Positions 20,161 through 63,553 of a stretch of 64,000 bases of DNA are shown piece after piece; positions within the stretch are counted from its first letter, which is position 1; every line of letters begins with the position of its first letter. A program made the position numbers and the translations under genes. The stretch lies in assembly GCF_932294415.1 (NCBI RefSeq), contig NC_065542.1, positions 45,287,942-45,351,941 of the forward strand, read 5' to 3'. Under the pieces are notes generated by a model, which was given only the letters and a program-made list of their open reading frames with translations, searched no databases and was not told where the DNA came from. This DNA comes from Quercus robur (taxonomy: Eukaryota; Streptophyta; Magnoliopsida; Fagales; Fagaceae).

Positions 20161-20609
20161 CTCTGCTTATTAGGACTAATGTCAGTTGATTGGAAATGTG
20201 CAACCTTACTTTACACTCCATAGGCCGGTGGTATCTGCGTTTTTTATAAATCACTGCAAAATTGATTAAAATTGGATTACAATTCTTTGAAGTTCCACAA
20301 ATAGCATGTTGAATTACATGGTGAACTGGAATTATATATATCCTTGATTTGAATCATGATTGCAGCCTCAGATATTTCTAATAGCTAGCCACATATGGCT
20401 TGTTACAGAGTAGATTTCTTTAAGCATGGAATTTTAATTTATTTCTTTTCATTCACCACTAAATGTAAGTACTTCATCTCCTAGGATGTACATAGTATCA
20501 ATTTCCTTCTGTTTCTTGATCTCTTAAATTTCCTTTTTTATATGAATCTTTCGTCTAGCCAAAGCGTCAAACCAGTTTCTTTTTATAATGATTTTGCTTG
20601 TCTTAACAG

Positions 20610-23540: not shown

Positions 23541-23924
23541 GTAGATCCAGCCCTTCAATCAGGGTTTGGAAAACTAGTTACGGTGCTTAAAAATATCATA
23601 ATTTCTCATCCTGTATTCCTAAGGCTAAATGCGAGATACAATACTAAAAGAGAGATAAAAATTTCTACTAAAAAATGAGGGGTGCGTATACATGCTGCTT
23701 CAAATGCCATAATTGACGGGGAGTGACAACTTGACCTACAGTGAGGCCAACACAGAGACTTCCTAAGTACAGCTATTGGTGCTGGTGGAGTCCACCCAAT
23801 CTTGCATGCATGCCATTTCATATTTCATTCCATTTGTCTATAAATGATCTACGCATTCATTTCCTTGCTAATCCAGGAGTTGTAAACCCATAAAAGATAC
23901 TACTAGATAATTTATACAAACACT
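23541..23924 (+). promoter_or_regulatory. LRR gene 5' flank, copy 2
   Basis: Conserved with 13907-14245. A TATA-like CTATAAATG lies near 23839, about 85 nt before the ATG at 23925. The promoter role is inferred. Confidence 0.45.
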
Positions 23925-25614: not shown

Positions 25615-25891
25615 TGAAAGAAACTATGTTTGTGGAAAATGGCAGCTTAAGTATATCAGCTGTCCATGCTTGTATTTATAGAAGTATCAATATACAAGTG
25701 ATAAATATCACTAAAGAATGTGATAATTACAAGTAAAAGGAAAAGATAAAGATAAACTTTACAATCATGATTACACCTATCTAGCATAATACTAATCTAC
25801 TGGTACGGACTGCAATCTGGTGTTGGATACAATCTTAGCCTGATTATCATCTCTAACAAACTTGATTTTATCTTTACTGGTTATGCTAACA
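25615..25891 (-). repeat. Copia 3' LTR (minus orientation)
   Basis: 277 bp, TG..CA. Identical to 30243-30519 except at 25776. The polyprotein stop lies inside this LTR. Confidence 0.95.
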
Positions 25892-28800
25892 TCCCCCCTC
25901 AAGCTGAAGGGAAGTGTGGAGACCCTAAGCTTGGATCGAAGAAATTCAAATCTATCAGATGTTAAGCCTTTTGTAAAGATGTCTGCAAGCTGTGCATGTG
26001 TTGAAATGAATCGAAGTTGAATATCCTTATTAAGCACCTTCTCTCTAATGAAGTGATAATCAACTTCAATATGCTTAGTTCTAGCATGGAACACCGGATT
26101 TGCTGCTAAGGACAAGGCACCTAAATTGTCACACCATAAAGTAGGCGCAGCAGAAAGTAATATATGAAGCTCACGAAGAAGCATGCGAATCCAATAAAGT
26201 TCTGAAGTTGCAAAGGCCATAGCTCGATACTCAGATTCAGTGCTTGACTTGGACACAACAGGTTGCTTTTTGGCACACCAAGAAACAAGACAAGGTCCAA
26301 CAAAAACAGCATATCCTGTTGTTGATCGACGATCATCGACACTCCCAGCCCAATCTGAATTGCTAAAAGCATGTAGTTGAAGTGAGCCCTTCCCATAGTA
26401 TAAACCATGATGGAGAGTACCCTTAAGATACCTAAGAACCCTTTTGACTGCTGACCAGTGAGCTGTAGTTGGGGAGTGTAGAAATTGACATAATTGATTT
26501 ACTGTAAACGCGATCTCTAGTCTGGTGAGCACACAATATTGCAAAGATCCCACAATTTGTAGATAGGCTGTAATATCGTCAAGAGGGTCTCCATGAAATT
26601 GAGACAATTTTGTGCTTGAAGAGAGAGGTGTGGAGCATGGCTTAGCCCCAGCCATTTTTGCCTTGTGAAGTATATTTGCAATGTACTTGGCTTGGGACAG
26701 GTGGACTCCTTGATCATCTCGACTTACTTTGATACCCAAAAAATAATGCAGTGGCCCCAAGTCTTTCATAGCAAAGTCTCTCTTCAAATAGGAGATAAGC
26801 CTAAGAATTAATGAAGGATGTGTCCCTGTAACAATAATGTCATCCACATATATTAAAACAAATATATGAGCATGAGGGGTATGAAAGGTAAATAGAGAGT
26901 AGTCAACCCGAGACTCTGTGAAACCAAGTGCAACTAAAGATTGTGACAATCTATGAAACCAAGCCCTAGGTGCTTGCTTTAGACCATATATGGCTTTCTT
27001 GAGCTTGCAAACATGAGTAGGATGATGCGAGTCAATGAAGCCAGGTGGTTGTTCCATAAAGACTTCTTCCTCCAAAGTTCCATGTAGAAATGCATTTGAA
27101 ACGTCCAATTGCCTAAGTGGCCAACCAAAGTGAACAGCAAGTGCTATAATAACCCTTATAGTTGCTGGTTTGATTACTGGACTAAAAGTCTCAGAGTAAT
27201 CTAAACCATCTTGTTGTTGAAACCCCTTTGCAACCAATCTTGCCTTAAATCTATCAACAGACCCATCAGCTTTCTGCTTTACTTTGTAAACCCACTTATT
27301 TTTTATCACATTTCGATTATGTGGTCTTGGACATAGATGCCAAGTATCATTAGACTTGAGTGCAGTGAACTCATCTTGCATCGCCTGCTGCCACTCAGTG
27401 AACTTTACAGCTTGGGAAAATGATGATGGTTCAATAGGTATAGCTTGGCTGTATAAGGCACACAATGGATGCTTGGTTGAGTAATAGATTTTGTAATCTG
27501 GAAATGTCTTTGGCTTGAGAGAGTTGGTTTTGGATCTGGTAACCATTGAATGAGAGGGCTGCAGAATAGGTTGAGGAGGAGGAATTGGAGGTTCAGGTTG
27601 ATCACTAATTGAAGTGGAACGGAATACTGGTAATTGATTTTCTGGTAGAATGTTGGAAGATGGAGATTCTGAGATTTCTGGTTGATTATGATGCAGTGGG
27701 ATTGAAGGAGATTCATGTGTTGATAAAGTGCTGTGTGAGTGTGAAAGTAAATGATCTATAGATGCAACATTATCAACAGGAGCATGAGATAAAGAGAGAG
27801 TAGAGGAAATAAACCTTGGTGCAGCCACAGTTGCCATGGTGAGAGAAGGATCATTGCTCTTTGGTGTAGACTTCTTTGCAAATGGTTCAAATAGAGAGTA
27901 GGCAGTATCCTGTGCTGGAAATTTGACCTCATCAAATACAACATTTCGACTTATGTAAACACGATTAGCAACTGGATCTAAGCATCTATACCCTCGATGA
28001 TTAGAACTATATCCTAAGAATATGCATCTTTTTGACCTAAACATTAACTTATGATCATTATAAGGTCTGAGTAAGGGGTAGCAAGCACATCCAAAGACTT
28101 TGAGAGAAGAGAAATCTGGTTCTTTGTTTAAGAGGACTTGATAAGGAGATTTGTTATCCAAGACACTTGTACGTAGTCGGTTTATAAGATAAATTGCAGT
28201 GCTAAAGGCTTCAACCCAATAAGTATTTGGAAGATGGGATTTTGCAAGTAAAGAGAGCCCTGTTTCAACAACATGTCTATGTTTCCTCTCAGCTACTCCA
28301 TTTTGCTGAGAGGTATATGGACATGTTAGTCTATGTTGAATACTATTAGTGGCAAGGAGGTGTTTGAACTGATTGGATAAGAATTCTCCACCATTGTCAG
28401 ATTGCAAGCATTTGATTTTACAATTAAACTTATTTTCAGCTAGGCATTTGAATTGCACAAAGTAATTGTAAACTTCAGATTTGAATTGCAATGGATATAT
28501 CCAAGAAAATCGAGAATAATCATCTATTAAGATCAAATAAAATTTGCAACCTCCAACTGAAGGTACAGGTGAACACCATAAGTCAGAGTGGATTATTTCA
28601 AGAGGACTAGTTGAGACTCTAGATGACAATGAAAATGGAAGACTTTTGCATTTGCCTAACTGACAGGACTCACAAACTGACCTATGATCAACATTTCCTC
28701 TAATAGGAAGTTGATATTTAGATTTTAAAAGCTGAAGAACTTGAGAGGATGGATGGCCCAAGCGATGATGCCACATTGAGGAGTTTGCAAAAACACCGAT

Positions 28801-30210
28801 GAAAGCAGTGAGCTTTCGAGCCTTATTTTTGGAGAGTGAAAGAAGTTGAATTGGATACAACCCGTCTCTACTTGGCCCTTGCAAAAGCGTCTGCCTCGTG
28901 AGATTGTCCTTCACCACAAAATTATCAGCTGTTAGCTTAAACCAGCAGTTATTATCCTTACAAAATCTTTGGATGGATAAAAGATTAGTGGCAGCCTTTG
29001 GGCGATGAAGAATATTGGATAATTTAAAATTTGAGTTTGAAGTTGTTTGAAATGTAGAGAAACCAGTGTGTGAGATATACAGACCTGTGCCATTGCCTAC
29101 TGTTACATCATTGTCACCTTGATAAGGTTCACTGACTTCGAGGTTGCTGAGATCACTAGTTATGTGGTTGTTAGCTCCACTGTCAACATACCAGGTTTGA
29201 TCACCATTGGCATGACTCCTTGCAGCCATTGCTGCTAACTGGGCTGGTGGATGATGGCCTTGATAGGAGAAGTTCATCCTATGGAAGCAATCCAAGGCTT
29301 GATGTCCATGCTTGCCACAAATTTGACATGAAGGTCTATTGTTAGATGAGAACCCACCAGGTAAAGACCCTTGTTGATTGGATTGAAAGGAATTTTTCTG
29401 CTGATTAGACTGCGAGTTGTTGTACTGTTGTGAGAACTGATGATTGTTCTTGTTTGAGCCATTGTACTTGTTTTTCTTGTTGGAGTTGTTCTTAGGTTTC
29501 TGAGAATACAGAGCAAAGCCTCCAGCATTTGTATAAGTTGAAGTTTGGTTAGAGTTTATCAACATCTCATAGTTTAATAACTCAGTCTGAAATTCATCAA
29601 ATGTTAGTGGCTTATCCCTAATTGCAAAGGAATATGAAGTAACAAATGGATGAAAAACAGGATTTAAACCACTGTTTATATAAGATATTAAGTCATCGTC
29701 ATCAACTGGTTTACCAGCCACGGCAAGTTGATCAGACCAAGATTTGGCAGATTGCACGAACTCTGCACAGGTTTTGGTCCCTTGATGTAAGGACTGAAGC
29801 TGTTTCTTCAGATGTGCTACTCATGATCTCGAATGAGATGCAAACTGAGAAGCAAGCAAATTCCACACTTTTTGAGAGGTATTGAGTCCATATACAGAAG
29901 ACAATACATTCTCAGTCAAGGTGGCATTTAACCAGCTCAACAAATACTGGTCTTTCTTCTGCCAGATAGCAAAATCTGGGTTGATGGTTGTAGTCTCTTT
30001 TCCTTCTTCATCTAGGTGAAACTTTGGTGGACATGGGTCTGTGCCATCTACAATTCCCATGAGATCATGACTTCGAAGGATTGGAAGGAACTGAGATACC
30101 CATAACAGATAGTTTGAGCTGTCAAGTTTGATTGAAACAAGTGGAGTAAGGTTTGGTGCATTGAATGATGGAAATGAAATAGAGGATGATGATGAGGCCA
30201 TTGAAGGATC
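25792..30210 (-). pseudogene. Copia gag-pol polyprotein with one in-frame stop
   Basis: Read from about 30210 down to 25792, the frame contains these domains in order. A copia gag (UBN2-like, LDSSNYLLWVSQ near 30120) comes first, then a zinc knuckle (CQICGKHGHQALDC near 29310) and protease (WYVDSGANNHIT near 29190). GAG-pre-integrase and an integrase core follow (HSDLW, SDNGGEF and QQNGVAERKHR). Reverse transcriptase (YVDDIIVTG near 26850) and RNase H (SDWAGSVDD, SSTESEYRA and ADIFTKG) close it. The only interruption is a TGA at 29821-29823, in gag upstream of the zinc knuckle. It is readable as a CGA-to-TGA change. Because everything else is open, the copy is either very recently dead or could be a sequencing/assembly difference. 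Confidence 0.92.
25892..25903 (-). other. Polypurine tract
   Basis: The minus strand reads TTGAGGGGGGA directly before the 3' LTR. This is the expected site for plus-strand DNA priming. Confidence 0.8.
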
Positions 30211-30230
30211 GATAGTGCTGCTGAGCCGTA

Positions 30231-30242
30231 GCTCTGATACCA
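30231..30242 (-). other. Primer binding site
   Basis: The minus strand reads TGGTATCAGAGC directly after the 5' LTR. This is the usual initiator-methionine tRNA site of plant copia elements. Confidence 0.9.
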
Positions 30243-30519
30243 TGAAAGAAACTATGTTTGTGGAAAATGGCAGCTTAAGTATATCAGCTGTCCATGCTTG
30301 TATTTATAGAAGTATCAATATACAAGTGATAAATATCACTAAAGAATGTGATAATTACAAGTAAAAGGAAAAGATAAAGATAAACTTTACAATCATGATT
30401 ACATCTATCTAGCATAATACTAATCTACTGGTACGGACTGCAATCTGGTGTTGGATACAATCTTAGCCTGATTATCATCTCTAACAAACTTGATTTTATC
30501 TTTACTGGTTATGCTAACA
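30243..30519 (-). repeat. Copia 5' LTR (minus orientation)
   Basis: 277 bp. One difference from the other LTR (30404). Confidence 0.95.
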
Positions 30520-33244: not shown

Positions 33245-33605
33245 TGAGTAATGTTATTGGAGTGTTTTTAATATATACGTATAAATAGTAAGCAGAAAAA
33301 TATGTAAATAGAAAAATGTGTAAAAAAATATGAAATATTATTTAAAATACTCAAGAGTGCGTCCAAAACACACGGCCAAGGTGCCAGAAAAAGTTGTGAA
33401 CATGTGACTTTCATTCAGTCAATGCATTTATGAAACAAAAAAGTAAGTCTCTGCGTGATAATATGACATAACTATCCAAATGATGGAGGCGAAGACCAAA
33501 AACACCCACCTCTTCTACCACCACCACAATCATCACCATCATTATCGTCATTATTCTGCTTGAAACCAACTCCAATTTTTTTCCTACCCTTTTTGCTCTG
33601 CATGC
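33245..33605 (+). promoter_or_regulatory. 5' flank of receptor kinase gene
   Basis: No other feature is seen. It includes a CCACCACCACAATCATCACC-type leader just before the ATG. No convincing TATA box was identified. Confidence 0.35.
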
Positions 33606-36218
33606 ATGGGTTGCTTCTCATTCTCATTCTTCTTCTTTATATGCTGCGTTTTCCTTCCAAGTCTTACTTTCTCAGCCTCCATTTCCACGCACTCAATCAG
33701 CCCCGACTTCACAGCCTCACACTTCCAATTCACCGACACCAAAGGCGCTTTCTTACGCTCTCAAAATGGTACTTTCGAAGCCACAATTGATGCCAGACCA
33801 CCCTCCTCAAAATATTTCTTCTCTATCGTCCACAGAGCCAACAAAATCATAATCTGGTCAGCCAACCGCAACACACCCATGTCAAGCTCTGACAAGTTGT
33901 CACTGACTGTCAACGGCCTCATAGTCACAAACCAAATAACTGGTCAACCACTCTGGTCAACCCCGCAATTCAAATCTGATATTTCTGCTATGCAGCTTTC
34001 AGAGACAGGAAATCTCGTTTTAGTTGATGGAGGAAACAATACGTTGTGGGAGAGTTTTGCTCATCCGACGGACACTATTGTCATGGGACAGAGAATTCCT
34101 GTTGGAAAATCCTTGCAAAGCGTTGTGACAGTCGACGAGGACATGTCGGTGGGTGATTATCGACTTGAAGTTACTGACAGGGATGTGGTGCTGCAATGGA
34201 AGAAGATGAATTATTGGGAATTGTCCATGGATCCAAAGGTTGTTAGGAACTCTAACAAGTCCGTATCGTTGATGGTGATGAATGGTACAGGTTTGTATTT
34301 GCTAGCAAGTGATAATTCCGCGGTTGTTCAAGTAGCTTGGAATGGATCATCAAGTTTTAGGAGTGGTAAGTTGGGTCCCGAAGGCAGATTTAACATCGTA
34401 AGTTGGAGCCGGAGGGATAAATGGGGGTTGGAATTTGCAGGACCATTTGAGGATTGTGATCTTCCTCTCCGTTGCAAAGAAATTGGATTGTGCAAAAGAA
34501 AGCCTCTGGGTGGAATTTGTTCTTGTTTACCAGAATTCAGTTCTCAAAACAATGGTGATTGCATGCCGGTGAATCGTTCGCTTTCTCTGCCTTCAGCTTG
34601 TACTGCAGCTAGAAATGGCAGTCAATTGAATTCCTCGATTTCCTATCTAAAATTCGGCCCCGGTATGGAGTATTTTGCTATTAATTTCAAAAAACCCGTG
34701 AAAAATAATGTAACGTTGTCGGTTTGCCAAGATTTATGCTCTCAAAATTGTTCTTGTTTGGGCTTTTTCCATGAAATTTCTTCTGGTTCTTGTTGTCTTC
34801 TTGAAAACTATTTAGGTTCTTTCATTTCGACAGACGACAATAATAAGGACCGCTTGGGTTATATTAAAGTTCTGGTTGGTTCTTCTAACAGAAATCAGAA
34901 ACAAAAGTTACCAGTCGCTGCTTTGGTACTATTACCTTTAACAGGATTCTTAATACTAGTAGTGTTTGTAATCATTGCAATCCTTTGGTTAAGGAAAAAG
35001 CGGCTTTCTAAAACCAAAACTGTAAAACTAGACCGGGGTAACTCGTCATCGTCTGCAGAGCTAGAGATGATCTCTATCCCAGGCTTACCGAGAAGGTTTG
35101 CTTATGAAGAGCTTGCAGCTGCTACTGAGAACTTCAGGACTCAGATTGGTAGTGGTGGATTTGGTACTGTATACAGAGGTACTCTGTCAGACAAAACTGT
35201 TGTGGCGGTCAAGAAGATTACTAATTTGGGAATCCGAGGGAAAAAAGAATTTTGTACTGAGATTTCAATAATTGGGAACATCCACCATCTCAATTTGGTT
35301 AGATTGAAAGGTTTTTGCGCACAAGGGAGGCAGCGCTTCCTTGTTCTCGAGTACATGAACAGAGGTTCGTTGGGCAGTACACTCTTTGGTAATGGTCCTG
35401 TTCTGGAATGGCGAGAGAGATTGGAAATAGCCATTGGAACAGCCAGGGGGCTTGCTTACTTGCATAGTGAATGTGAGCACAGAATCATCCACTGCGATGT
35501 GAAGCCAGAAAACATTCTCTTGAACGACAATTTACAAGTGAAAATCTCAGATTTTGGGTTGTCGAAGCTGCTTAATCCTGAACAATCTTTTCAATTTACA
35601 ACAATGAGAGGAACTCGAGGCTATCTTGCACCTGAGTGGATAATGAGTTCCACAATTTCCGACAAGGCTGATGTATATAGTTATGGGTTGGTTTTACTAG
35701 AGATTGTGAGGGGAAGAAAAAATTGCTCAATGCAAACATGGAGCCATAGCACAAAAACTAGTAGCAGTGAAGGAAATGCCTCATCCTCATCCCCTTCTGT
35801 TTCGGAACACAGACTAATATATTTCCCTCTATTTGCGCTAGAAATGCATCAGCAGAGAAGGTACTCGGAACTGGCAGACCCAAGGTTAGAGGGACGAGTG
35901 ACAAGTGAAGAGGTTGAGAAGCTAGTGCGGATTGCCTTGTGTTGTGTGCATGAAGATCCAGCGCTGCGGCCTTCTATGGCTCACGTTGTTGGCATGTTGG
36001 AAGGTGGTTTGTCTTTGGGTGAGCCGAGGTCTGAGTCACTAAATTTCTTGCGGTTCTATGGCCAGAGATTCATCGAGGAGTCAAGAATGGAAGGGTTCAA
36101 TGAGCTGAAGGACTTGGGGTTGTATCCAGATATAAATGCTACTTCTAATAGTGCTGCAGGTGTTTCATATAACCCAATGTCTTACATCTCTTCACAACAG
36201 CTTTCTGGCCCCAGGTAG
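33606..36218 (+). CDS. G-type lectin S-receptor-like serine/threonine protein kinase
   Basis: An intact single-exon gene of 870 residues, likely an orthologue-type of Arabidopsis At5g35370-like kinases. A hydrophobic signal peptide (1 to about 24) starts at ATG 33606; an overlapping frame from 33560 is a shadow. A B-lectin domain spans about 35-155. A cysteine-rich EGF/S-locus-like part lies at about 280-325, and a PAN-type module near 345-425 (CQDLCSQNCSCLGFF). The transmembrane helix is at about 437-463, followed by a basic stop-transfer. The kinase domain spans about 507-800: glycine loop GSGGFG near 514, lysine in VAVKK near 535, HCDVKPEN near 629 and DFG near 649. The catalytic loop has C, not R, before the aspartate, so it is a non-RD kinase, a class often linked to innate immune signalling. 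The protein should act at the plasma membrane; the ligand is unknown. Confidence 0.95.
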   Translation: MGCFSFSFFFFICCVFLPSLTFSASISTHSISPDFTASHFQFTDTKGAFLRSQNGTFEATIDARPPSSKYFFSIVHRANKIIIWSANRNTPMSSSDKLSLTVNGLIVTNQITGQPLWSTPQFKSDISAMQLSETGNLVLVDGGNNTLWESFAHPTDTIVMGQRIPVGKSLQSVVTVDEDMSVGDYRLEVTDRDVVLQWKKMNYWELSMDPKVVRNSNKSVSLMVMNGTGLYLLASDNSAVVQVAWNGSSSFRSGKLGPEGRFNIVSWSRRDKWGLEFAGPFEDCDLPLRCKEIGLCKRKPLGGICSCLPEFSSQNNGDCMPVNRSLSLPSACTAARNGSQLNSSISYLKFGPGMEYFAINFKKPVKNNVTLSVCQDLCSQNCSCLGFFHEISSGSCCLLENYLGSFISTDDNNKDRLGYIKVLVGSSNRNQKQKLPVAALVLLPLTGFLILVVFVIIAILWLRKKRLSKTKTVKLDRGNSSSSAELEMISIPGLPRRFAYEELAAATENFRTQIGSGGFGTVYRGTLSDKTVVAVKKITNLGIRGKKEFCTEISIIGNIHHLNLVRLKGFCAQGRQRFLVLEYMNRGSLGSTLFGNGPVLEWRERLEIAIGTARGLAYLHSECEHRIIHCDVKPENILLNDNLQVKISDFGLSKLLNPEQSFQFTTMRGTRGYLAPEWIMSSTISDKADVYSYGLVLLEIVRGRKNCSMQTWSHSTKTSSSEGNASSSSPSVSEHRLIYFPLFALEMHQQRRYSELADPRLEGRVTSEEVEKLVRIALCCVHEDPALRPSMAHVVGMLEGGLSLGEPRSESLNFLRFYGQRFIEESRMEGFNELKDLGLYPDINATSNSAAGVSYNPMSYISSQQLSGPR

Positions 36219-49770: not shown

Positions 49771-49929
49771 TGTTGAGGTCTAAAAAAGAGTCCTAGTGAA
49801 GTAAGCCCAAAAAGAATAAGTCAAGCCCAAAAGGAAAATTCAAGCTAAGCCCAAAGTAATAGATACAGGAGACCCATGAGGGAATAAAAAAAAGGCCTAG
49901 AGGATCCTGAAGCCCAGAAAAAGAAGCAT

Positions 49930-49960
<31 letters not shown>

Positions 49961-51045
49961 CACGGCAAAGGATAAGAAGCAAGGATCCTCAGGAACCATC
50001 AATAGGCGCGGATCCCTTCAGGCACAAAGAAAAAAGGAAGATTGGGACAGCTCGATAGAAAAAGACAGAAGAAGAAAACAAGAAACAAAAAGCAAAAAGA
50101 ATGCGAGCGACCTCTCATGGCACAGACAGAAAAGGCCTCGGGGAACTAGGACAGGGAAGAAGAATGATAACAAACGACTTTCAAAATGGCAGAACAGGAT
50201 TCCGCCCAAATAGGAAAGAAAAGGGAAAAGTGGAATAAGCCAGAAATGGGGATGCCGAGAAGGGCATACCTCAGCACGTCCCAAAGAAGATGGCCAACCA
50301 GGAACTTTCAAAAGAATCAAAGCTAAAAGAAGGTAAGAATGAGAAAAAAACGGAAAAGGGACTTACCGAGACGATGGGAACAAGACATGCTCTGTTTGCA
50401 AAAGAGCAAAACAGGGGAACCAACGATTCCCCGGGAAGACCAAAAAACTCCATTATAAAAAGAGGGGATGGGTTGTGAAGAAAAGGCAACGAAAAAAAAA
50501 AGGAGAAACACCAGAAAGAAGAAATTCTCTAGAAAAAAAACTATCAGAAAATCTATGCAGAAGAGAAAATACTAAGGGAAAAACAAATTTTGCTTCTCGG
50601 TATCCTGTAAAAGCCACTATTGCACATGCTCGGATTCAACGAGAATCAAATTTTGCAAGTTTTGAAGGCTGAAATAGCCATTCAAGACTGTAATTTTTGA
50701 GCTTGATTGAACCTTGTATCACGTCCTAGTGAGCTTTCTGTAATCCAACAGATAATATATTAATGAAACATGCTTCATATTTCCCAAGATCCCCACAGCA
50801 TTAATTTCTTATCGCTTTGCTAATCCTGTTTCTTTCCTTTTGAATTTACCTTGTTAATCTTTGGCACTCTTCGATATCCTCTCTTGTCATTTTTTTTTTA
50901 TATTGTCAGGAGCATCCTCTGCATCCCACTTGATTCTTAAACAGCTCGTTAGCTGCGGTGAGTCAAGGCCCGGTTCACCAAATCCTCCTTTTCACTTAGG
51001 CCCGGGATCCTTGGGCTTGAGTGTCACAAAAAAGGCACTCTCACA
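49771..51045 (+). repeat. Gypsy 5' LTR, 1,275 bp
   Basis: TGTTGAGGTC...CTCTCACA. A TATA box (TATAAAAAG) is at about 50454-50462. The difference in length from the 3' LTR comes mainly from an A run at 49929-49954. Confidence 0.95.
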
Positions 51046-51048
51046 TTT

Positions 51049-51067
51049 TGGCGACTCCACTGGGGAC
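51049..51067 (+). other. Primer binding site
   Basis: TGGCGACTCCACTGGGGAC starts three bases after the LTR. This type of site is known in Tat/Ogre elements. Confidence 0.85.
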
Positions 51068-51106
51068 TAGGCAAAGAAGAAGGAAGAAGCAATCCCTTCA
51101 CAGAGT

Positions 51107-53332
51107 ATGCCTCCAAGACAAAGAAACAGCAAAGGAACTAATGTGCCACCTACGGCCTCTGAGCCCGTAGGAGAAAACGAGGTAGCTTCCAGGCAAAGAG
51201 GCGGGATACCCCTGGCAGAACAGGAGGTTGTGTCAGAGCAAAGACACGCAAGACAGGAACCAAACCTCATGGCCAGGATGACAGCAATGTTGAAAGATCT
51301 AGAGCAAGAAGTTCGTCTTCTCAAAGAGGGCAGGACACAGGAAATCAGAGACAATGTTCCCTCTACTGGTCACCAAGATGGGACGCAACCAGAAGGAGGG
51401 TCAGCAGTGGGAGGAAGAGCCAACCCTCAGTACTTAACATTGGCAGATGTCAATGCCCTCCTGGAGCAAGAAAGGGAAAAACTCTCAGGGATCCCCAAGC
51501 AATTCTCTCGGGATCCCCCATTCCCTCCAGAACTGCTCGGCAAACCATACCCTAAGGGGTACGAACCCCCAAAGTTTCATCCTTTCGATGGAAGAAATGA
51601 AAGTGCCGTGGAACATGTGAGTAGGTTTGTCCACACTATGGGCCCCTATGCAGGAGACAGAGAATTATGTCTAAGGGAGTTCGCCAAGTCCTTAGTGGAT
51701 AGGGCATACACTTGGTACACCACGCTGAGACCCAGGTCCATCAAAACCTGGGATGAGATGATGGAAAAATTCTGCGCCAAATATTACCCTGGTGAAGACA
51801 AGATCACTTTCCAGAATTTGCAAATGGTGAGGCAGAGACCTGGAGAGGATCCCGTCCAATTCATTAAAAGATTTGAAGATGTGTCCCTAGACTGCTATGG
51901 GGACTATGAAGAATAGGAGCTCGTGGAAACCTGTATAACCGACATGCATTTTGATTACAGACTCAACCTTGAAAATCTATGTATCACGCAGTTTGCTGAC
52001 TTGCTACAGAGAACCAGAAGGACGGTGCAAACCATGAGGACGAAAAGGCTGCCTGCGTCCCAAGCTATGACAGCATCAATAGGAGAAAAAAGGAAGAGAC
52101 CAGATGGGAAGGTGTTCGAGGAACCACCAGTGATCCCATGTACAGCTGAAGAGTTAAGCCATGTCTTAGACAAATGGATCGAAGATAGGGTTGTTAGGCC
52201 ATTCACTGTGTCCAGGCCACCAACTGAAGAAGAAAGGAAGAATCCTTTATTTTGCAGAATCCATAATTATGTCAAGCACTCCACCAAGGATTGTTGGACC
52301 CTTCGCAGACTCTTCCACAAAAAGTTGAGAGAAGGAACCCTGGAGCTCACTCAGAAGGAACCAAAAGTGCAGAGGAACCCCTTGCCGAACCACAAAGGAA
52401 AAGGGGTGGTAGCAGTAGTAATACATGGGAACCCGACAGAAGCAGGAGAATCTGAAGGATCCTTCCACCCAAGCATAGTCAAGACCCTCCAGAAGAATCC
52501 TAAGTTCAGGTCACTATTCAATCAATTAGGATTCGGACCAGAAGTAAGAAGAGTGGCCACAGAGTCTCTCATGAGCATAGCAGCAGATTCAGGGATGGAA
52601 TGCTTTACAGTAGAGTCACATGCTAGTCGAGCTTTCCTGGAGATAACCAATGCAATAACCTTCACTGATGAAGACATGGAGATTAAGCACCCAGTCCACC
52701 GTAGACCCCTTTATCTAATGGCCACCATAAACGGCGTTCAAGTCAGAAGAGCACTGGTGGATATGGGGGCATCACTCAATCTCATAGCCTTGAGTACCCT
52801 GGAAGTTGTTGACTTAGTTGACAGAAGGATCCTGGGGGCTCCCATGGAAATAACAGGATTTGGAGGATCGGTGGAATCAATAGAAGGATACGTGCAGCTA
52901 GCCTTAAGGGTAGGGCCAATAGTAGCCCTGACAAGGTTTCATGTGATTAATGTAGAAGTTTCTTATCATGTGTTGCTGGGACGCTCGTGGCTTCATAAAC
53001 ATCGCCTAATTCCATCCACGTTCCATCAATGCATTAAAGGGAGACTGAATGGGAGGCCCATAAGGATCCCTGCCAACCATAATCTTTTCAGTCAGGGAGA
53101 AGTGAACTTTGCAGAAATGATGTTTTATGATGAATTAGAGCCAGATGTTGAGGACCCCGCCCCGAGGACCCCAGGGGCACCTATCCTAGAAGAAGAAGAA
53201 GGAGGGAGAGGCACCCGTGACCTGAGGAACCTTCTAGAAAGAAAAAGACAAAAAAGGAAGCCCAGCTCTTCAGGATCCCGAGAATGTGTGGTGGTGCAGG
53301 AACCCGAGGGAAGGCTAATCTATCGTTTGTGA
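51107..53332 (+). pseudogene. Gypsy gag and protease, degraded
   Basis: From ATG 51107 the frame encodes a retrotrans_gag domain (residues about 155-290: FHPFDGRNESAVEHVSRFV, REFAKSLVDRAYTWYTTL and FCAKYYPGEDKITFQNL). A basic region and a retropepsin-like domain follow near 52720-53000. The protease active-site triad reads DMG (at 52758-52766) where DTG is expected, so the protease should be inactive; ACG to ATG would explain it. In-frame stops are TAG at 51914 and TGA at 53330. The same frame continues on both sides, so gag, protease and pol were a single frame. Confidence 0.9.
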
Positions 53333-56300
53333 AGGTGCGCGGGACCCGAATGCATTGTGCAGGAAGGTCCCAGACTACCAAGCTGCATGATGGCCCAAGA
53401 AGAAATTCCAGAAGAACCAGTTAAGAAGGCCCAAATTCAGCCTGAGGAAGAATTAAAGGAAATAGATTTGGGGATAGAACCGGGATCCCGAAAGCCTGTC
53501 TTCATTAGCAGTCAATTGGTGGCGCAAGAAAGAGAACAACTGGTAACCTTGCTTCAAAAATACAGAGATGTGTTTGCATGGACCTATGATGAGATGCCTG
53601 GTCTAGACCCAGGGTTGGTAGTCCATTCTCTTAATGTGGACCCAGGGATAAGGCCAGTAGTCTAACCGACTAGGGTCTTCCACACTGAGGTAGAAGCTCA
53701 AATAGTTCAAAAGGTCAAAAAATTGCTAACAGCTGGTTTTATCAAACCCATCCAACACCCAAAATGGCTTTCCAACATTGTACTTGTGAAGAAGAAAAAC
53801 GGTCAGATCCGTTGCTGTGTAGACTTTCGCAACTTGAACAAGGCATGTCCTAAAGATGAATTCCCCTTGCCCAATATCGACCTCCTTGTAGATTCAGCTG
53901 CAGGAAGCTCAATGTTCTCATTTATGGATGGGTATAGTGGGTACAACCAAATCCGCATGGCAGCCAAAGATGTAGAGAAGACGGCATTCAGAACTCCGAT
54001 TGGGAACTTTTACTACACTGTAATGCCCTTTGGCCTCAAAAATGCGGGGGCTACGTATCAGCGGACCATGACAGCCATTTTCCATGACATGATGCATGAG
54101 GAGATGGAAGATTATGTAGATGATATTGTGGTCAAGTCAAAAACCAGAACAGGACATTTCTAAGTACTTGAGCAAGTCTTTGAAAGATGCAGGAAGTATA
54201 AGTTACGTATGAACCCCATGAAGTGCGCCTTTGGAGTGTCTGCTGGAAAGTTCCTTGGGTTCCTGGTACATCACAAAGGCATAAGTGTGGATCCAGCCAA
54301 GGCTACAGCTATCGTCACAATGAGAAGACCAACTACTGTTAGGGAACTCAAAAGCTTCCTGGGAAGGGTCTCCTATATTAGGAGATTTATGCCTGGTTTA
54401 GCCTCAGCTACAGCAGGCCTATCCAAACTGTTGAAAAAGGGGAATGAATTTACCTGGGGGACCGAGCAGCAGGAAGCTTTTCAAAGAATTCAGGGCATCA
54501 TAAATCATCTGCCCACACTCCAGGCACCAGTACGTGGGCGACCTCTGTTGCTATACTTAGCATCAAACTCCCAGGCAATAGGAGCTTTGCTGGCACAAGA
54601 AGATGACCAAGAAAATGAGTAGCCTGTATATTATGTAAGCAGAACACTCAAGGATACCGAGACCAGGTATCCCAGAATAGAGAAAGCCTGCCTAGTGATC
54701 ATTTATGCATCCCAAAGGCTGAAGAGGTACTTCTCAGCTCACCAAATCCTCTTGGTAACCAAGTCCCACCCCATAAAAGCACTCCTGCACCAGCCCGTTC
54801 TTACGGGAGGGGTAGCACAATAGCTAGTGTTGCTCTCTCAATATGATACAGGCATAAGAACTCCCAAGGCTGTCAAGAGCCAGGCCATAGCAGATTTGCT
54901 AGCTCAATTCCCAGGAAAGAAGGAAAGCCCGCTGAGCGAAGAAATCCCTGGTGAGGTAGCAGTGATGGAGATCCCAGGGAAGAAATGGACCATGAGGTTC
55001 GACGGGTCGGCTACAACAACTTCAAATGGGGTAGGAATTGTACTAAGCTGTGAAAATGGGGATATCATGCCCCTGTCTTTCAAGCTTGGTTTCTCATGCT
55101 CTAATAATGCAGCTGAATATGAGGCATACTTAACTGGGTTGACTATAGCACTCAGCATAGGAGTGAAACATATGAGAGTGTTGGGAGATTCCGATCTTGT
55201 AGTCTCCCAAGTGAAAGGTGACTTTGCATTACGGGAACAAAGCTTAGCAGCCTACAGGACTTGGGCACAAAGGCTGGAGAGAGAATTTCAGACCTTCAGC
55301 ATAGAGTATGCTCAAAGAAGTGAAAACAGGTTTGCTGATGTGCTCGCCACCCTGGGATTCCAAATACCATTTAATGGGAGAGATACGCTGATAAAAATAG
55401 GAAGGCAGGAACATTCTATTGTAAGGATCCTCCAAGGGATGTACCCCGGAGAGTCCAAACAATGGGACTGGAGGGGCGAAATCAAAGAAAAGATGAAAGA
55501 AGCAGGGCCTAGGGGGAACATCAAAGAACTAATGGATTACACTCAGATAGAAGGAGAATTGTATAGAAGGCTGCCAGGAGGAATACTGTCCAGATGTATC
55601 ACCGAGAAGGAAGGAAAGTCGAAACTAGAAGAATTACACGCCCAAGCATGTGGAGTTGCAGAAAAGGTCAGCCTATATAGAAGGATGCAACGCATAGGGT
55701 ATTACTGGCCAGATATGGACAAGGAAGCAGCAATTATATAGGAGAAATGCCAGCAATGTCGTTTGGCAATTGATAAAGAAGAAAGCTACGCGGTGTTTAT
55801 TGCGGAAGATTGGCGGGTTCCTTTCATAGGATACCTGGCTCAGGGGATCCTGCCAACCGATAGGAAACTGGCCCACAAGCTCAAAAAGCTAGCAGGCAGG
55901 TATTTCCTGCAGAACGACATTTTATTCAAAAAGGGATACCATGGGGATCCCTTCAGGTGCCTGAGACCAAAGGAAGCCAGAGAAGTAGTCAGAGAAGTAC
56001 ATTCTGGAGATTGTGGAAGTCACCCGGGGAAGAGAAGGCTGTACAAGCAGTTACTGTTGTTGGGATATTACTAGCCAACGATGAAAGGAGACTCTGAGGA
56101 GCTGGTCAAAACATGTCATGCTTGCCAAGTCCTGGGAGATGCAATTCACACTCACCCAAATGTCCTACAGGATATGACGACGTCATGGCCTTTTCATACT
56201 TGGGGGCTTGATCTCATAGGGCCTATAAACCCTCCATCCAACGGTTATATATGGATCCTGGCAGCCACCGAGTACTTTATAAAATGGGTAGAGGCCATCC

Positions 56301-57063
56301 CTTTAAAGAAAGCCACTGGAGCAGCTGTAGCAAATTTCATTTGAAACCACATCATTACAAGGTTCGGGATCCCCAGAAGATTGATCAGTGACAACGGAAC
56401 CCCATTCATAAACAAAGATATGAAGGGGTTAACTGAAGCATACCACATCAAGCATGGAAGATCTACCCCATACTACCCACAAAGAAACAGCCAAGCTGAA
56501 GCTACTAATAGGGTAATGTTGAAGATCCTTAAGAAAATGAAGCATGAGTATGGAGGGAAATGGAGTGACCATTTGGCAGATGTGCTTTGGGCATGTAGAA
56601 GCTCTGTAAAGATAGCCACAGGATTCTCCCCATTCTCCCTGGTCTATGGAACAGAAGCCATCAGCCCTTGTAGTTAGTCATTCCTACACCAAGGGTAGTT
56701 CTGGAGGAAAATCAAGGAGAAAGTAAGGACACAAACAATGAAAAGAGGCTAGCAGATCTGGAAGGGGTAGAAGAAGAAAGGGAGCTGGCCAAGAAAAGGA
56801 GCCAGAGATACCAGCAAAGAATGACCAGAGCATATGCACAAGCAGTACGCCCAAGAGTGTTCACTGAAGGGCAATTAGTACTAAGGATGGCGGAGCACGT
56901 GAGGAGGAATCTGCTAGGGCCTTCCAAGTTCACCCCAAAATGGGAAGGACCCTACATCATCAATGCAGCTCATGAGAGTGGGTATTATTACCTTGCCAAA
57001 GAAGATGGGACAGTCCTGACAGAACCCATAAACGGGAAATGGCTGAAGCAATACTATGCATAA
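53333..57063 (+). pseudogene. Gypsy pol (RT, RNase H, second RNase H, integrase), degraded
   Basis: RT spans about 53720-54250 (IVLVKKKNGQIRCCVDFRNL, MPFGLKNAGATYQR and YVDDIVVK). A first RNase H lies at about 54430-54800. A second RNase H at 54990-55360 (MRFDGSATT, NNAAEYEAY and LGDSDLVVSQVKG) marks Tat elements. The integrase has a zinc-binding part (ending CHACQ near 56113), a core with aspartates in GLDLIGP and ISDNGTPF and the glutamate in NSQAEATNR, and a C-terminal part ending at 57063. Stops: TAA 53663, TAA 54161, TAG 54620, TAG 54821, TAG 55739, TAG 56072, TGA 56342 and TAG 56675, then a frameshift before 56821. It is non-functional. Confidence 0.92.
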
Positions 57064-57764
57064 GGACAAGGGGATCCCGGTACCTCAGGGTCCTTTTACC
57101 AGCTTCACTATCTGCTAAGTTCTTTTTTATTTTTATCTTTTTTTTTTCAGCCTTTATCATGAATTCTGGTCTAAGATGATTTTGTTCAGGAACATGTGAT
57201 AGATTGACACTTTGTGGTCAATACTGCACTAAATGATTTTTTCTTTGTTCCTTAAAAATGACCATGTTTTAATGAAGTTCCTGTTCCTTCAACATTTAAG
57301 TCTTTTTTTAAATACTGCAAAGACCAAGTTTGGATAGATTTAAGGAAGGATACCTGAGTAAAAAAAAAGGTATGTAATACCCTTTTACATATGGCCCAGG
57401 ATCCACCTCACAGATAACTTCAAATATCCCACAGACAGTTCTAAGTGCATAGGTCTAGGACCACAGATAAAAGTAAGGTATCCAGGATACCTAGCCTAGC
57501 ACTTGGCAAAAGGGGAACCTGTCAAAGTTCATGAATTGAGACCGTATCTCAAAAAAAATATATAGGAAAAGATACTAGTGTACCCAGTTCAGTACTTGCA
57601 TAATAGATTACTGGGTACCTGGACCGGAACTTACAGTGAAGCCTGTGAAAACCATGGTCCAAGACTCAGGGAAAAAAAAAAGTCATAGAAAAGAAAAAGC
57701 AATATATATCAAAGAGAAAGGCAGATTCACATACTAAGAAATGAGAAGCAGTTTTGAAACACAG

Positions 57765-57806
<42 letters not shown>

Positions 57807-57871
57807 AGTAGAGCAATGTTCAAAAAAAAAACTTATACAACCCTAAATAGTTTATGTAAATCTAAAATAAG
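57064..57871. other. Spacer between gypsy pol and the antisense gene
   Basis: No gene. It contains repeated (T/G)CC(T/C)AGGATCC wording and A homopolymers (about 57763-57804). It is the likely 3' UTR/terminator region of both the sense pol and the antisense gene, which converge here. Confidence 0.5.
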
Positions 57872-58814
57872 CTAAGGAATGAGGCCGGCCAACATGGAGG
57901 CATCCGGAGAAATAACAGGCACATTCAAAGTAGAAAGGATCCTCTGCCGCTTGACCTTCAAGTCTTGTAGAACCTTGTGAGCATGAGCCAAAGCTTCCTC
58001 AGCAGCAGCTATCTCGATGTCTATACCCTTGGACGATTGCCTCTGAAACAACATATGGGCCAACAAACGCAAGTGATCCAACAGAAAAGACAAATTGAAC
58101 TTGGCCTCCAGAAGGTCTTGGACCACCACTCTCCACTCCAAAAGTTTTTCTTCAGACAAAGAATCTACAGAAGAATTCCTCAGGGAAACCAGCACAGCAC
58201 ATAGCAACTCCATCAAAATATTGCCCAGAAAAACGCCTCCCTTGAAGCCACTGGTGAAATCCTCGTGACTCTTGAGCAGACTCTCTAACAGCGGCAGGCC
58301 TTCAACAAGAACAGAGAAGCGCAAGAAGTTGCCATAAGAAGACCCAAAAACATGGAAATGGCTGGCAGGAAGACTGTTAAATTCCAAGAGATCAAAACGA
58401 GCCAGGAAGGAGGAAAGCCTTGAATCAAGATCTGAGTCAGCCACTTTCGAGGCGTCCCCCATCACTGTGTCACCACTTGTAGAGACAGGAGGACTTGCAG
58501 CCTTTGGCTCTGGATGAAGGTCAGCAACTTGAACGGGTCTCACAATTCCTTCAGGGATAACAGGCTCAGAATCTGCAAAGCCTGTATCAATATTCAAAAA
58601 AAAAAAAAGAGAAGGAAAAACAGATTTATTCTTAAAAAAAAGAAAAGGGGAAAAAGAAGGACAAACCAGTTCCGTCTTCTTGGGGCAGAGCCTCTTCTTC
58701 CTAATCCCCTGACTTCCCCGAGGATTCTGGGAAAGAACATAAGGCAAATTGAAGAAAAGGTGAAGGACCAATGGCAAAGTGGCTAAAGGAAGGAATAGAT
58801 GCAGGGGGCTTCGC

Positions 58815-58859
<45 letters not shown>

Positions 58860-61768
58860 GAGCAGCTCGTACTCACCTTCTGAACTTTCTGATTCTAAAG
58901 AAGAGGCAACACTAGGAGCGGATTTCTCACTGGTTTGACCTAAAAGGAGAAAGAAAAGGAGGAACTCAAAAAAACTGGAAAAGAAAGTAAAGATATAACA
59001 CTATTTCAAGGAAACAAGGCTCACCCGTCTGTTTGGATAAAGGAGTGTCTCCCAAAGCGCCTTTATCTGACAATGTTTGAGGAAACACAGTCCTGATGGG
59101 ACTAGAAGTGCGCTCAAGATGGGGACTTTGAGATGAAGGGATCCTAGAGGCTTTGGGGTCCTGAGAATCCTGGGAACCCTGCATCGGTTGCCCGGTTTCC
59201 TCAGCTGGGCCACCAGTAGGGGGCTCCTCCCCCGCAGTAGGAAAAGCAACAGAAAGAGCTGTGACGGTTTCCTCTCCCAGAGCCTTGCCAGTCATAGGAG
59301 GAGATACCTCCACCTAAAGGAAGAAGAAGAAGAAGAGGCAATGCCAAGTAAAAACAATAGGGTAATGCTAACAACACAATGTCAGAACAGAAAAAGGGGG
59401 GGGCACATACCACGTCGTCACCAGAAGATTGGCTTTTGCCCTTCTTGTAATCAAACTTGCGTTTGGACTGCAAAGGAAACCACCACTCGTCAGCAAAAAA
59501 TAGAAACGAGTGCAACAAGGTGAACAAATGAAAAAAAGAGAAGAAGGAAAGAGGTCTTGCCCTTCTCTCTCTCTCTACAGATTCTCTGGAAGTCTTTTGC
59601 TTACTACGAGTACGCCCAGAGGGTCCTAAAGGAGGCTGGGAAACAAGACCAGAGGATCCTAAAGAACCATGGACTGAAACAGTCACAGGAACCTGGGAAA
59701 AAGAAGACTCTACCTTGGTCTTCTTCCGGGTCCTTGAAGCCAAAGGTTCCCTGGCATCCTTGCCTTCCTGAGATGCCAAGTGTGTTTAAGATTTCCCAGT
59801 TTTTCTTCTTTTTGTCTCAGAACCTATCTCCACACTTTCATCGACATTAACAGCTTTCATTTTCTTCGGCCTGACATCCTTACCTTTACTCGGAGCAGTG
59901 GCAGCACTTATTGTCTCCATTGCACCTTTCTTGATGGGCACTCCAGAGGAAGCGCCAATGATGAGACTATAACCCAACCAAGTCTCAGGAAAATCCTGTC
60001 CATAAGTCACCCAACCTCCCCTGGAGGCATGCCACTCTGCAAACCCAATCTTGCTGCTTGCAGCAGCTGAAACAATCCCAGCAGTAGGAAGGGATAAACG
60101 CCTATTGGATGTCGGAGCAGAAACAATACTAGGATCTGGGGTTTCCCGAACTGTACCAGAGCCAACATAGTCAACAAAAGACTTTTGTACTCTTCTCCAA
60201 TAACTGGTATAGCCACTAGAAGCAAAGACTCCTCTCTGGGAGCTAGGCACTGCAAATTGGGGGCTCCTCCGTGACCAATAAGAAAAGGCCTGCAACCTCA
60301 GGAAAGGATCCAAAGAAGGAAGAGACGGCACCACGTCCTTAAAAACTGGAGGAATGTCTTGATCAAAACCAAACTGTCGAAGCACCCGGTGTGCTGAATA
60401 ATAAGTATATTTTGGGCCACTTGAAGAAGGCACAGGAAGCCAAGAGGGGCTAATGCAGGCAAGATAAGCCAGACTGCCCTCATCACCACGGCGCAAGTCA
60501 AAGGTATTACCTGTAGAAGATAAAAAAGAAGACAATACAGAATCACACGCAAAGCCAGGGCCAAACTCACGAGGGGATCTCCAATGTAAGCTCCCTGCTT
60601 GGTCAAATAACTCCACAAGATTGAGACCACCACCTTTCAAGCTAATCCAACGAAAGATGATGGGAAAGGCATTGGTAGAATTGCCACAAAGACCCTTCAC
60701 TATGTCGGGGGATCCTTGGAACTTGTCCTTCACAAATTTCAAATTCCTGCACTTGGCCAAAGTAGCTGCAGAACGGTCCCACATGAAAATCTGAAGGATG
60801 GCACAGTGAAGAGATGAAGTGATCACATAACAAGAATCACCCTCAGTCTCATCTCCATGAAGCTGGTCCAATTGAGAGTAAACATGACCCAAAAACAGAG
60901 GGGCCAAAGGATACTGGGTACCTCGAGCCAACTTGATTGCCAACGGAAAAAATGAAGACTTAACTCCGTACCCAGGGAACTCACTAAACAAGAACTTACT
61001 AAGCCAAAAAGCCAGAAAACCGGCCCACCTCACTTCCTTATCCTTCTCACGAGAGAGGGTCATCACCCATCTCCCCATCCTAGCCGGCTTACCACCAGAA
61101 GAGGCAGCGCGACCACCAAAATGACCAAACAATTTATCTTCTATCACGAGATCCTCACCAGAAAGGTTAATATCAAAGGGGCTCTCTTCACCAAACATCG
61201 GGAGGAGGAAGTTATTAACCACATCTTCCAAGGTGATCGTCAATTCACCAGCAGAAAAGAAAAAAGTATGAAGGGAAGGGCACCAATGACGTACCAAATG
61301 CCTGAGCCCTTTGGTGTCTCTGAAGCCCTCAAGGTTTCTGGAAATAGCCACTGCCTTTAGGATACCGGCGCGCTCCAAGCGACCCACAAACTCAGCATCA
61401 GACAGTTCCTTGTCTACCCATATAGGCCAACCTTGAATCTTTCCCGGAACAAAATCAAAGAAAATAGGAACCGCCTTTCGAATTCCTTGTCTAATCTGAA
61501 GATCAAAAATCTCTCTAGGGTCAGGAACCTGGGCGGAACCAGCGAAACCCGCTTGGCCAGAAAACATCCAAACATGAGGGGATGGAGGAGCCTCACCATG
61601 AGATACATGAGGGAAAAATAAACTGGGAGAATACCAAGGATCCCGTAAAGGGAAGGCCAAACGTTCTGTAACCTCGTGAGAATCACTCGGAGCAGAACCA
61701 GAAGAACCTTCACCCTCAGAAGGACTGGGAGTACGCTCTCTCCTCTTTCGGAAAGAAGAAGAAGCCAT
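57872..61768 (-). pseudogene. Antisense six-exon plant mobile domain (PMD) gene inside the gypsy element
   Basis: Minus-strand exons, in order: 61768-59579, 59467-59411, 59313-59025, 58939-58877, 58726-58667 and 58581-57872. All introns are GT-AG with T-rich 3' ends. Phases agree, giving 3,369 nt (1,122 residues plus stop) with two nonsense codons: TAA at 59788-59786 and TAG at 58703-58701. ATG 61768 is the first ATG of the frame; the upstream open part is hydrophobic leader. Residues about 80-430 resemble the plant mobile domain (VRHWCPSLHTFFF and GELTITLEDVVNNFLLP at 159-191; then WAGFLAFWLSKFLF). Basic nuclear-localisation-like runs occur near 640-660 (KGKDVRPKKMK, KRRK). The C-terminal exon has a coiled-coil-like segment (EIAAAEEALAHAHKVLQD). 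PMD is shared by host proteins of the MAIN/MAIL type and by transposons. The role here is unknown. Confidence 0.8.
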
Positions 61769-62290
61769 CAGAACAACACGTACTATGAGAAGAAAGGAGA
61801 TTGAAAGTGCAAAAAGGGGGAAGACCGGAGTAACAGAGAAGAAGGGAAAAAGAAAGAGAAACTCAAAGAGTGAAAGACTCAGAGAAGCAAAGTGATAAGA
61901 TGAAACGGCTACAATAAAGGCGCAAATAGCAGTTGGGGAAAACAGTTTATGGAAAGACGCGCTAGTTGCCAAAAATTTAATTTGAAGAAGGGGTTAATCA
62001 ACGGTTATTAATGAGAAGTAACGGGAAACGAGAAAAGTGGGTAGAGGAGTTTTACCTCAAATACTCAACTGCCACGTCCCGTGTAAAAAGAAAGCTGCAA
62101 AAAGTAATAATTATAAGGGAACGCGACATGCAAAAAGGAGGTGACCAAAAGCAGCAAAAAAGGGCAGGGATCCCAAGTAAAAAGGAAGGGAACCCAGTAG
62201 AAATTGAGAAAAAGGGGATCCCACGAAAATCTTAGGACCTAAATCACTCACGCGTGGGTTTCAGGCAACCCACGAGCTCGGGGGACTAAA
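61769..62290. promoter_or_regulatory. Region between antisense gene start and 3' LTR
   Basis: Upstream of the antisense ATG and immediately inside the 3' LTR. It probably contains the antisense promoter, although no clear TATA box was found. It ends in the purine tract CTCGGGGGACTAAA that borders the 3' LTR. Confidence 0.4.
62280..62290 (+). other. Gypsy polypurine tract
   Basis: GGGGGACTAAA directly before the 3' LTR TGTTGAGG. Confidence 0.75.
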
Positions 62291-63553
62291 TGTTGAGGTC
62301 TAAAAAAGAGTCATAGTGAAGTAAGCCCAAAAAGAATAAGTCAAGCCTAAAAGGAAAATTCAAGCTAAGCCCAAAGTAATAGATACAGGAGACCCATGAA
62401 GGAATAAAAGAAAGGCCCAAAGGATCCTGAAGCCTAGAAAAAGAAGCATCAAAAAAAAAAAAAGGACCACGGCAAAGGATAAGAAGCAAGGATCCTCAGG
62501 AACCATCAATAGGCGCGGATCCCTTCAGGCACAAAGAAAAAAGGAAGACTGGGACAGCTCGATAGAAAAAGACAGAAGAAGAAAACAAGAAACAAAAAGC
62601 AAAAAGAACGCGAGCGACCTCTCATGGCACAGACAGAAAAGGCCTCGGGGAACCAGGACAGGGAAGAAGAATGATAACAAACGACTTTCAAAATGGTAGA
62701 ACAGGATTCCGCCCAAATAGGAAAGAAAAGGGAAAAGTGGAATACGCCAGAAATGGGGATGCCGAGAAGGGCATACCTCAGCACGTCCCAAAGAAGATGG
62801 CCAACCAGGAACTTTCAAAAGAATCAGAGCTGAAAGAAGGAAAGAATGAGAAAAAAATGGAAAAGGGACTTACCGAGACGATGGGAACAGGACATGCTCT
62901 GTTTGCAAAAGAGCAAAACAAGGGAACCAACGGTTCCCCAGGAAGACCAAAAAACTCCATTATAAAAGGAGGGGATGGGTTGTGAAGAAAAGGCAGCGAA
63001 AAAAAAAAAAGGAGAAACACCAGAAAGAAGAAATTCTCTAGAAAAAAAACTATTAGAAAATCTGTGCAGAAGAGAAAATACTAAGGGAAAAACAAATTTT
63101 GCTTCCCGGTATCCTGTAAAAGCCACTATTGCACATGCTCAGATTCAACGAAAATCAAACTTTGCAAGTTTTGAAGGCTGAAATAGCCATTCAAGACTGT
63201 AATTTTTAAGCTTGATTGAACCTTGTATCACGTCCTAGTGAGCTTTCTGTAATCCAACAGATAATATGTTAATGAAACATGCTTCATATTTCCTAGGATC
63301 CCCTCAGCATTAATTTCTTATCGCTTTGCTAATCCTGTTTCTTTCCTTTTGAATTTACCTTGTTAATCTTTGGCACTCTTCGATATCCTCGCTTGTCATT
63401 TTTTTTTATATTGTCAGGAGCATCCTCTGCATCCCACTTGATTCTTAAACAGCTCGTTAGCTGCGGTGAGTCAAGGCGCGGTTCACCAAATCCTCCTTTT
63501 CACTTAGGCCCGGGATCCTTAGGCCTTAGTGTCACAAAAAAGGCACTCTCACA
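62291..63553 (+). repeat. Gypsy 3' LTR, 1,263 bp
   Basis: Same ends as the 5' LTR. TATA box at about 62961-62967. Open frames on either strand inside both LTRs are parallel and non-coding. Confidence 0.95.

Follow-up and report, generated by a model that had tools for sequence, protein, structure and literature searches.

A 64,000-nt stretch of the Quercus robur genome (NC_065542.1; hereafter the window, whose coordinates are used throughout) contains a long terminal repeat (LTR) retrotransposon at 49771-63553, and analysis of this element points to a spliced gene for a plant mobile domain (PMD) protein on its minus strand, between pol and the 3′ LTR. Six exons are predicted for this gene, and its structure recurs in related copies of the same genome together with a pattern of substitution that indicates purifying selection on the protein. 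We place the probability of this joint reading, which covers the spliced antisense PMD gene, its structure and its selection and leaves function aside, at roughly 85%. The sequence comparisons indicate that the antisense gene is real and that the copy in the window, which has two internal stops in its 1,123 codons, is therefore a pseudogene.

The first exon (59579-61768, with the start ATG at 61768) had been said in an earlier note on this DNA to resemble the PMD, and a hidden Markov model search bore this out: its translation matched PF10536 with E = 2.2e-31 and 109.8 bits, which by the curated cut-off of 34.9 makes it a member of the PMD family, over positions 2-346 of the 347 of the profile and residues 136-524 of 660. 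It is followed by exon 2 (59411-59467), exon 3 (59025-59313), exon 4 (58877-58939), exon 5 (58667-58726) and exon 6 (57872-58581), the last of which holds the C-terminal part and the terminal stop. The coordinates proposed for these exons, the GT-AG ends of the introns and the in-phase join were all confirmed, giving 3,369 nt or 1,123 codons. The joined frame is thus in phase as had been claimed, but it is not open in the window copy, where in-frame stops occur at codon 661 (59788-59786, exon 1) and codon 875 (58703-58701, exon 5). The translation contains the PMD, lysine/arginine-rich stretches, a serine-rich acidic linker and a C-terminal region, with the basic clusters located after the PMD. 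Exon 6 matched PEARLI-4 (PF05278) at E = 1.4e-4, under the cut-off; PEARLI-4 was absent from the exon 6 controls (one reversed and four shuffled), one shuffled control matching the unrelated Croc_4 at E = 0.16. Through this likeness, the element protein may be connected with a host family.

A codon score trained solely on the 660 PMD codons of exon 1 favoured the proposed frame over the other five in exons 2, 3, 4 and 6; in the tail of exon 1, where the gene strand was scored, it favoured that frame over the other two. It gave exon 5 no support; in addition, the donor of intron 1 is weak (3 of 9 positions matching a U1 consensus) and so, by pyrimidine count, is the acceptor of intron 5, and these points count against the exon plan. 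The score is also unclean for short pieces: introns reached up to 7.8 bits in some frame compared to 6.7 bits for exon 4, and the short exons are therefore undecided by it. Had only the window copy been considered, there would be reason to doubt exon 5 and intron 1. The two in-frame stops, the weak intron 1 donor and the lack of codon-score support for exon 5 could even suggest that the plan was read by chance into a decayed open frame and that no spliced gene lies behind it. Such a reading is scarcely tenable given that splice sites and exon lengths are conserved in 29 further copies, in which drift in length falls mostly in the introns.

These copies were found by searching the Q. robur genome (785.7 Mb in 42 contigs) with the PMD frame as query, which returned 67 scored PMD matches among 1,410 candidates, namely the window and 66 others at 93-97% identity. 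The 30 best-scoring copies were extracted, the window among them, and the 29 others were read; a copy with a large insertion (L021) and one with a deletion (L028) were retained in the counts, and gaps were set aside. The start ATG was kept in all 29. For introns 1 to 5 (59468-59578, 59314-59410, 58940-59024, 58727-58876 and 58582-58666, the fourth having a lengthy stretch of T on the strand of the gene), the donor GT was kept in 29, 29, 28, 28 and 26 copies and the acceptor AG in 29, 28, 27, 26 and 28, while the window lengths of exons 2, 3, 4 and 5 (57, 289, 63 and 60 nt) were retained in 28, 27, 28 and 26. No frame-shifting insertion or deletion (indel) was present in exons 1 to 6 of, respectively, 26, 28, 27, 28, 28 and 24 copies, exon 6 being read in part, and the terminal stop was kept in five of the six copies read for it, the sixth having an insertion. 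The lengths of every intron fell in all three classes modulo 3, and in-frame retention of intron 1 was excluded by length or by a stop in 27 of 29 copies. Indels occurred at 0.65 per kb in exons versus 22.8 per kb in introns; outside homopolymers, there were 53 in exons (31 distinct; 0.65 per kb) and 99 in introns (35 distinct; 9.2 per kb). The stop at codon 661 was found in none of the 29 other copies and that at codon 875 in one of the 28 with letters there; as they are not common to the other copies, both are lesions of the window copy and not part of the family design. Related copies in the genome thus follow the exons that had been proposed, and through their splice sites and fixed lengths they support all six, exon 5 included.

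The setting of the gene was also similar among copies. The stretch from the 3′ LTR edge to the ATG (61769-62290), which on the minus strand forms the 5′ flank of the gene, with its leader and a possible promoter, had its counterpart upstream of the gene in all 29 other copies, in three of them in pieces or rearranged. The integrase end lay on the opposite strand in five of the six small stretches fetched, the sixth containing an insertion. For 27 of the 67 PMD copies, including the window, a reverse transcriptase (RT) match lay 6,816-6,973 bases off on the other strand, and four other RT matches lay less than 15 kb from PMD copies in a different arrangement; this pairing used coordinates alone, with best matches in both lists (67 PMD, 150 RT). 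One copy whose pol frame is open over 1,243 codons also had a PMD stretch open for 555 codons, within the 1.7 kb fetched. It might be imagined that the window copy alone had recently picked up a host PMD gene, since gene transduction by retrotransposons is known and the genome has other PMD genes, some of them clustered locally. Such a single, recent capture is nevertheless highly improbable: the gene is found at 93-97% in the other 66 scored copies, its position and strand are alike across the copies examined, and the element PMD is only about 25-28% identical to eight other PMD genes of the genome (L001-L008). An ancient capture of a host PMD gene is possible.

All five introns were present in the 29 other copies, with a minimum coverage of 94, 94, 56 and 32% for introns 1, 2, 3 and 5 and of 19%, in one copy, for intron 4. 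A direct join of exons 3 and 4 was found in 0 of 40 scored copies, window included (312 candidates; intron 3 only). Both observations agree with the argument, made in the earlier note, that antisense introns survive retrotransposition, and the presence of the introns accords with replication via a sense RNA, on which introns of the antisense strand would go unrecognised. The genomic RNA would remain unspliced at these sites and every new copy would inherit the intron-containing gene, a pattern that is seen in the copies and a mechanism that we infer; antisense introns would in this way account for the carriage of a multi-exon gene by a retroelement. The same null result tells against the reading of a spliced gene, as no copy was found in which an intron had been lost via spliced antisense RNA; splicing is therefore deduced and not directly seen, and the expression, splicing in vivo and function of the gene are likewise proposed from sequence.

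Selection on the protein was assessed on the rationale that, if the protein matters during the active life of an element lineage, inherited variants should have been filtered and private ones not. Variants present in at least three copies were classed as shared and those of one copy as singletons; two-copy variants belong to neither class, which left out 21 nonsynonymous (N) and 15 synonymous (S) variants in the PMD part. In the PMD exon, shared variants at codon positions 1, 2 and 3 numbered 26, 26 and 127, compared to 117, 97 and 116 for singletons. Biallelic codons, counted without codons of more than two codon types and with gapped copies excluded per codon, gave 14 N : 74 S for shared variants versus 79 : 54 plus 7 stops for singletons (Fisher p = 6.7e-11 for N and S), where the neutral expectation of N : S is 2.24 : 1. 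When exon 1 was read in its two other frames, no deficit of N was observed (shared 72 : 11 and 63 : 11). The effect was weaker in the codons after 661, where shared variants numbered 29/23/51 versus 109/113/106 for singletons (p = 5e-4) and shared biallelic codons 10 N : 13 S (p = 0.009). The pooled ratio of nonsynonymous to synonymous rates (dN/dS) was 0.19 for codons 1-660 and 0.53 thereafter. Concentration at third positions in shared but not in singleton variants therefore indicates purifying selection in the transposing lineage and decay after insertion. Such selection along transposing copies would mean that the PMD protein pays its way for the element.

Several observations weigh against the reading of a conserved and selected gene. 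The 29 copies were selected for the best protein match to the window, one identical 9-base difference accounts for 23 of the 56 exon indels, and an in-frame stop was absent over the stretch read in only 7 of the 29. With regard to selection, PMD singletons (79 : 54) are themselves somewhat under the neutral ratio, shared variants have no third-position excess in the tail of exon 1 (5/3/4) and a slight excess in exon 3 (12/11/16), and among the few shared biallelic codons N equals S in exon 3 (3 : 3) and exceeds it in exon 6 (3 : 0). Variant sites are moreover non-independent, so that the p-values are nominal. If the antisense transcript mattered solely as RNA, by sense-antisense pairing or through small RNAs, the protein would be incidental; this has been suggested for antisense open reading frames (ORFs) generally (PMC7264820), but the third-position bias, the fixed exon lengths and the conserved splice sites point to selection at the protein level and make an RNA-only role very unlikely.

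In the mechanism that we propose, an antisense promoter in integrated DNA would drive transcription of the gene and the host would splice the transcript, yielding a family product of about 1,120 residues. This protein is under purifying selection among transposing copies and decays after insertion, the window copy being a decayed one. The host proteins MAIN and MAIL1 carry a PMD and silence transposable elements together with PP7L (PMC5418596, PMC8616336, PMC7156037), and counter-silencing by PMD proteins encoded by transposable elements has already been proposed (PMC8616336). The element protein could accordingly act in the nucleus on this PMD-dependent silencing (MAIN/MAIL1-PP7L), by mimicry or competition favouring element expression, a function that we put forward tentatively and short of even odds. 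Its more specific form is rather unlikely: here, the product of the spliced antisense gene under selection would be a decoy of the MAIN/MAIL1-PP7L machinery made only from integrated nuclear copies, because antisense introns would prevent its production from sense RNA in particles. Were that so, an integrated copy would shield its own expression while its genomic RNA stayed intact. Given the identity of about 25-28% to L001-L008, any mimicry would concern the fold rather than primarily the sequence. The protein might instead serve the element's own cycle, for example in nuclear import of the preintegration complex, element transcription or chromatin targeting. Selection operating at the level of the element and basic clusters following the PMD agree with such a role, as does the finding that Grande gene23 is nuclear and TRP28 predicted to bind DNA, both being antisense accessory proteins of other elements in this group (PMC7264820, PMC11963269); on the other hand, nothing was seen that ties the PMD protein to gag, to integrase or to the DNA of the element, and the domain itself is one described in host silencing proteins. 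We consider this role about as likely as counter-silencing, and likewise short of even odds.

The element that carries the gene is flanked by the target site duplication (TSD) CCTTG, directly before the 5′ LTR (49771-51045) and directly after the 3′ LTR (62291-63553), so that the LTRs and the TSD claimed in the earlier note are both present. The LTRs, of about 1.27 kb each and on the plus strand as are all the canonical parts, share 95.6% identity (39 mismatches in 1,260 sites; Kimura two-parameter distance 0.032 for the pair). A primer binding site and a polypurine tract had also been claimed: a stretch resembling the former, TGGCGACTCCACTGGGGA, lies immediately 3′ of the 5′ LTR (51046-51070), whereas before the 3′ LTR there is a short G-rich tract. 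TGGCGACTCCACTGGGGA is a putative match to tRNA-Arg, complementarity to which marks the primer binding site of the Ogre lineage. The gag and protease frame (51071-53332) matched PF03732 at E = 1.6e-10 and, slightly under the cut-off, PF13975 at E = 4.3e-6, and has one internal in-frame stop at 51914-51916. The pol region (53333-57063) matched PF00078 (RT; 6.5e-21), PF13456 (7.7e-18) and PF17919 (1.2e-7) in an order of RT, RNase H, second RNase H and integrase, the integrase pieces scoring under their profile cut-offs, and contains several stops and a frame change in the window copy. Read as a single frame, gag-pol is broken there by ten stops up to 56677 and by a frame change near 56674; stops are more numerous in gag-pol than in the antisense gene of this copy, which was not used as evidence. 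Among the 150 best RT matches, 33 (hand count; one with a stop inside the match) shared a pol frame open over 1,243 codons, which would put the pol start close to 53333, right after the stop ending at 53332; the stop at 53330-53332 may be the normal end of gag-protease. Elements of the Ogre lineage have gag-protease and pol in two frames separated by an interval.

LTRs, TSD, gag and the order RT, RNase H, integrase (its pieces under their cut-offs) place the element in Ty3/gypsy, and a second RNase H between RNase H and integrase, with PF17919 at 54164-54619 and PF13456 at 54824-55741 before the integrase pieces, places it in the Tat clade (Ogre/Retand type), for whose angiosperm clades Ogre and Retand this arrangement is a mark (PMC6317226). 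The PMD in an extra ORF is a feature of Ogre, without being exclusive proof. The Retand domain TRP28 (PF04195) was not found when the 660-codon PMD frame and the frame of exon 6 were scanned with a maximum E of 10, within which the HMMER filters drop most matches above E of about 0.1. Within the Tat clade of Ty3/gypsy, the lineage of the element is most likely Ogre. Two same-strand RT pairs were observed elsewhere in the genome, C4:28993563/29006037 (12,474 bases) and C35:15187401/15199880 (12,479 bases), both near the LTR-to-LTR period of 12,520 of the window element; they are possibly head-to-tail copies sharing an LTR.

The genome search also listed more distant PMD loci. Those numbered L001-L017 are distant relatives in which no match, at E up to 1e-3, was found to the gag, RT, RNase H and integrase pieces of the element. 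Loci L001-L005 and L007 lie in a local PMD gene cluster of about 250 kb at C37:13.17-13.42 Mb, where eight matches are full or near-full, with open frames, and two are partial. Another PMD family present as repeats (for example C35:10044138, C35:37011474, C3:59762154 and C41:16021581; L009-L011) has seven listed matches that all score 175 bits, over profile positions 5-194; the remainder of its PMD lies further along, and the stretches read gave no match to the gag and pol pieces of the element. At L016:2-1729, a Mutator-like element (MULE) transposase and a SWIM zinc finger share one frame, with a PMD match nearby on the opposite strand. Relatives sought in viral and genome contig collections amounted to 5 and 16 pattern matches, none confirmed, and a PDB sequence search gave no match. 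Elsewhere in the window, 25615-30519 is a young-looking element, copia-type by frame inspection, with 277-base LTRs at 99.6% and a long minus-strand frame, and adjoins a leucine-rich-repeat-like frame. The stretches 10265-15432 and 20161-25614, about 10 kb apart, are similar (80-96% in pieces) and include leucine-rich-repeat frames (by Pfam in the first copy), and a long open frame at 33564-36215 with B-lectin, S-locus and protein kinase domains corresponds to a receptor-like kinase.

Ogre elements with extra ORFs carrying pfam10536 were reportedly described by Steinbauerova et al. in 2011. The gene type is already in print: PMD was reported in 57% of Ogre elements (PMC6317226), the PMD-A clades are restricted to gypsy elements (PMC5418596), and a survey of plant LTR elements met PMD more often than any other non-canonical domain (PMC9289625). 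The oak element resembles the PMD-carrying Ogre elements of Neumann et al. (2019; PMC6317226) in being a Tat-clade gypsy element with a second RNase H between RNase H and integrase and a PMD gene outside gag-pol. That survey considered open frames of at least 250 codons, and the sections consulted describe no introns in PMD genes, whereas five are present here in 29 copies; antisense introns would explain why ORF-based surveys could report the first exon only. Ikeda et al. ran a gene predictor around PMDs borne by transposable elements (PMC5418596), and multi-exon PMD models may therefore exist. A description of introns in an antisense PMD gene, or of its selection signature, was not found in searches of openly licensed papers, which is weak evidence of absence; on that footing, it is the conservation of five introns on the antisense strand, together with the signature of selection, that we have not met in print.

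Among the PMD proteins of known systems, those of the PMD-A1/A2 clades (Ikeda et al., 2017; PMC5418596) likewise come from gypsy elements, a likeness drawn by the type of carrier element alone, while MAIN and MAIL1 (PMD-C; PMC5418596, PMC7156037) have the PMD in common with the oak protein but are host genes. Antisense extra ORFs of plant elements have been reviewed (PMC7264820, PMC11963269), and those of Retand and Grande also lie between pol and the 3′ LTR; Retand differs in having TRP28 where the oak element has the PMD, the two frames scanned here giving no PF04195 match. Beyond plants, HBZ of HTLV-1, which has a spliced isoform (PMC12088518), is likewise a spliced antisense accessory gene of a retroelement, with an unrelated protein in an unrelated retroelement.

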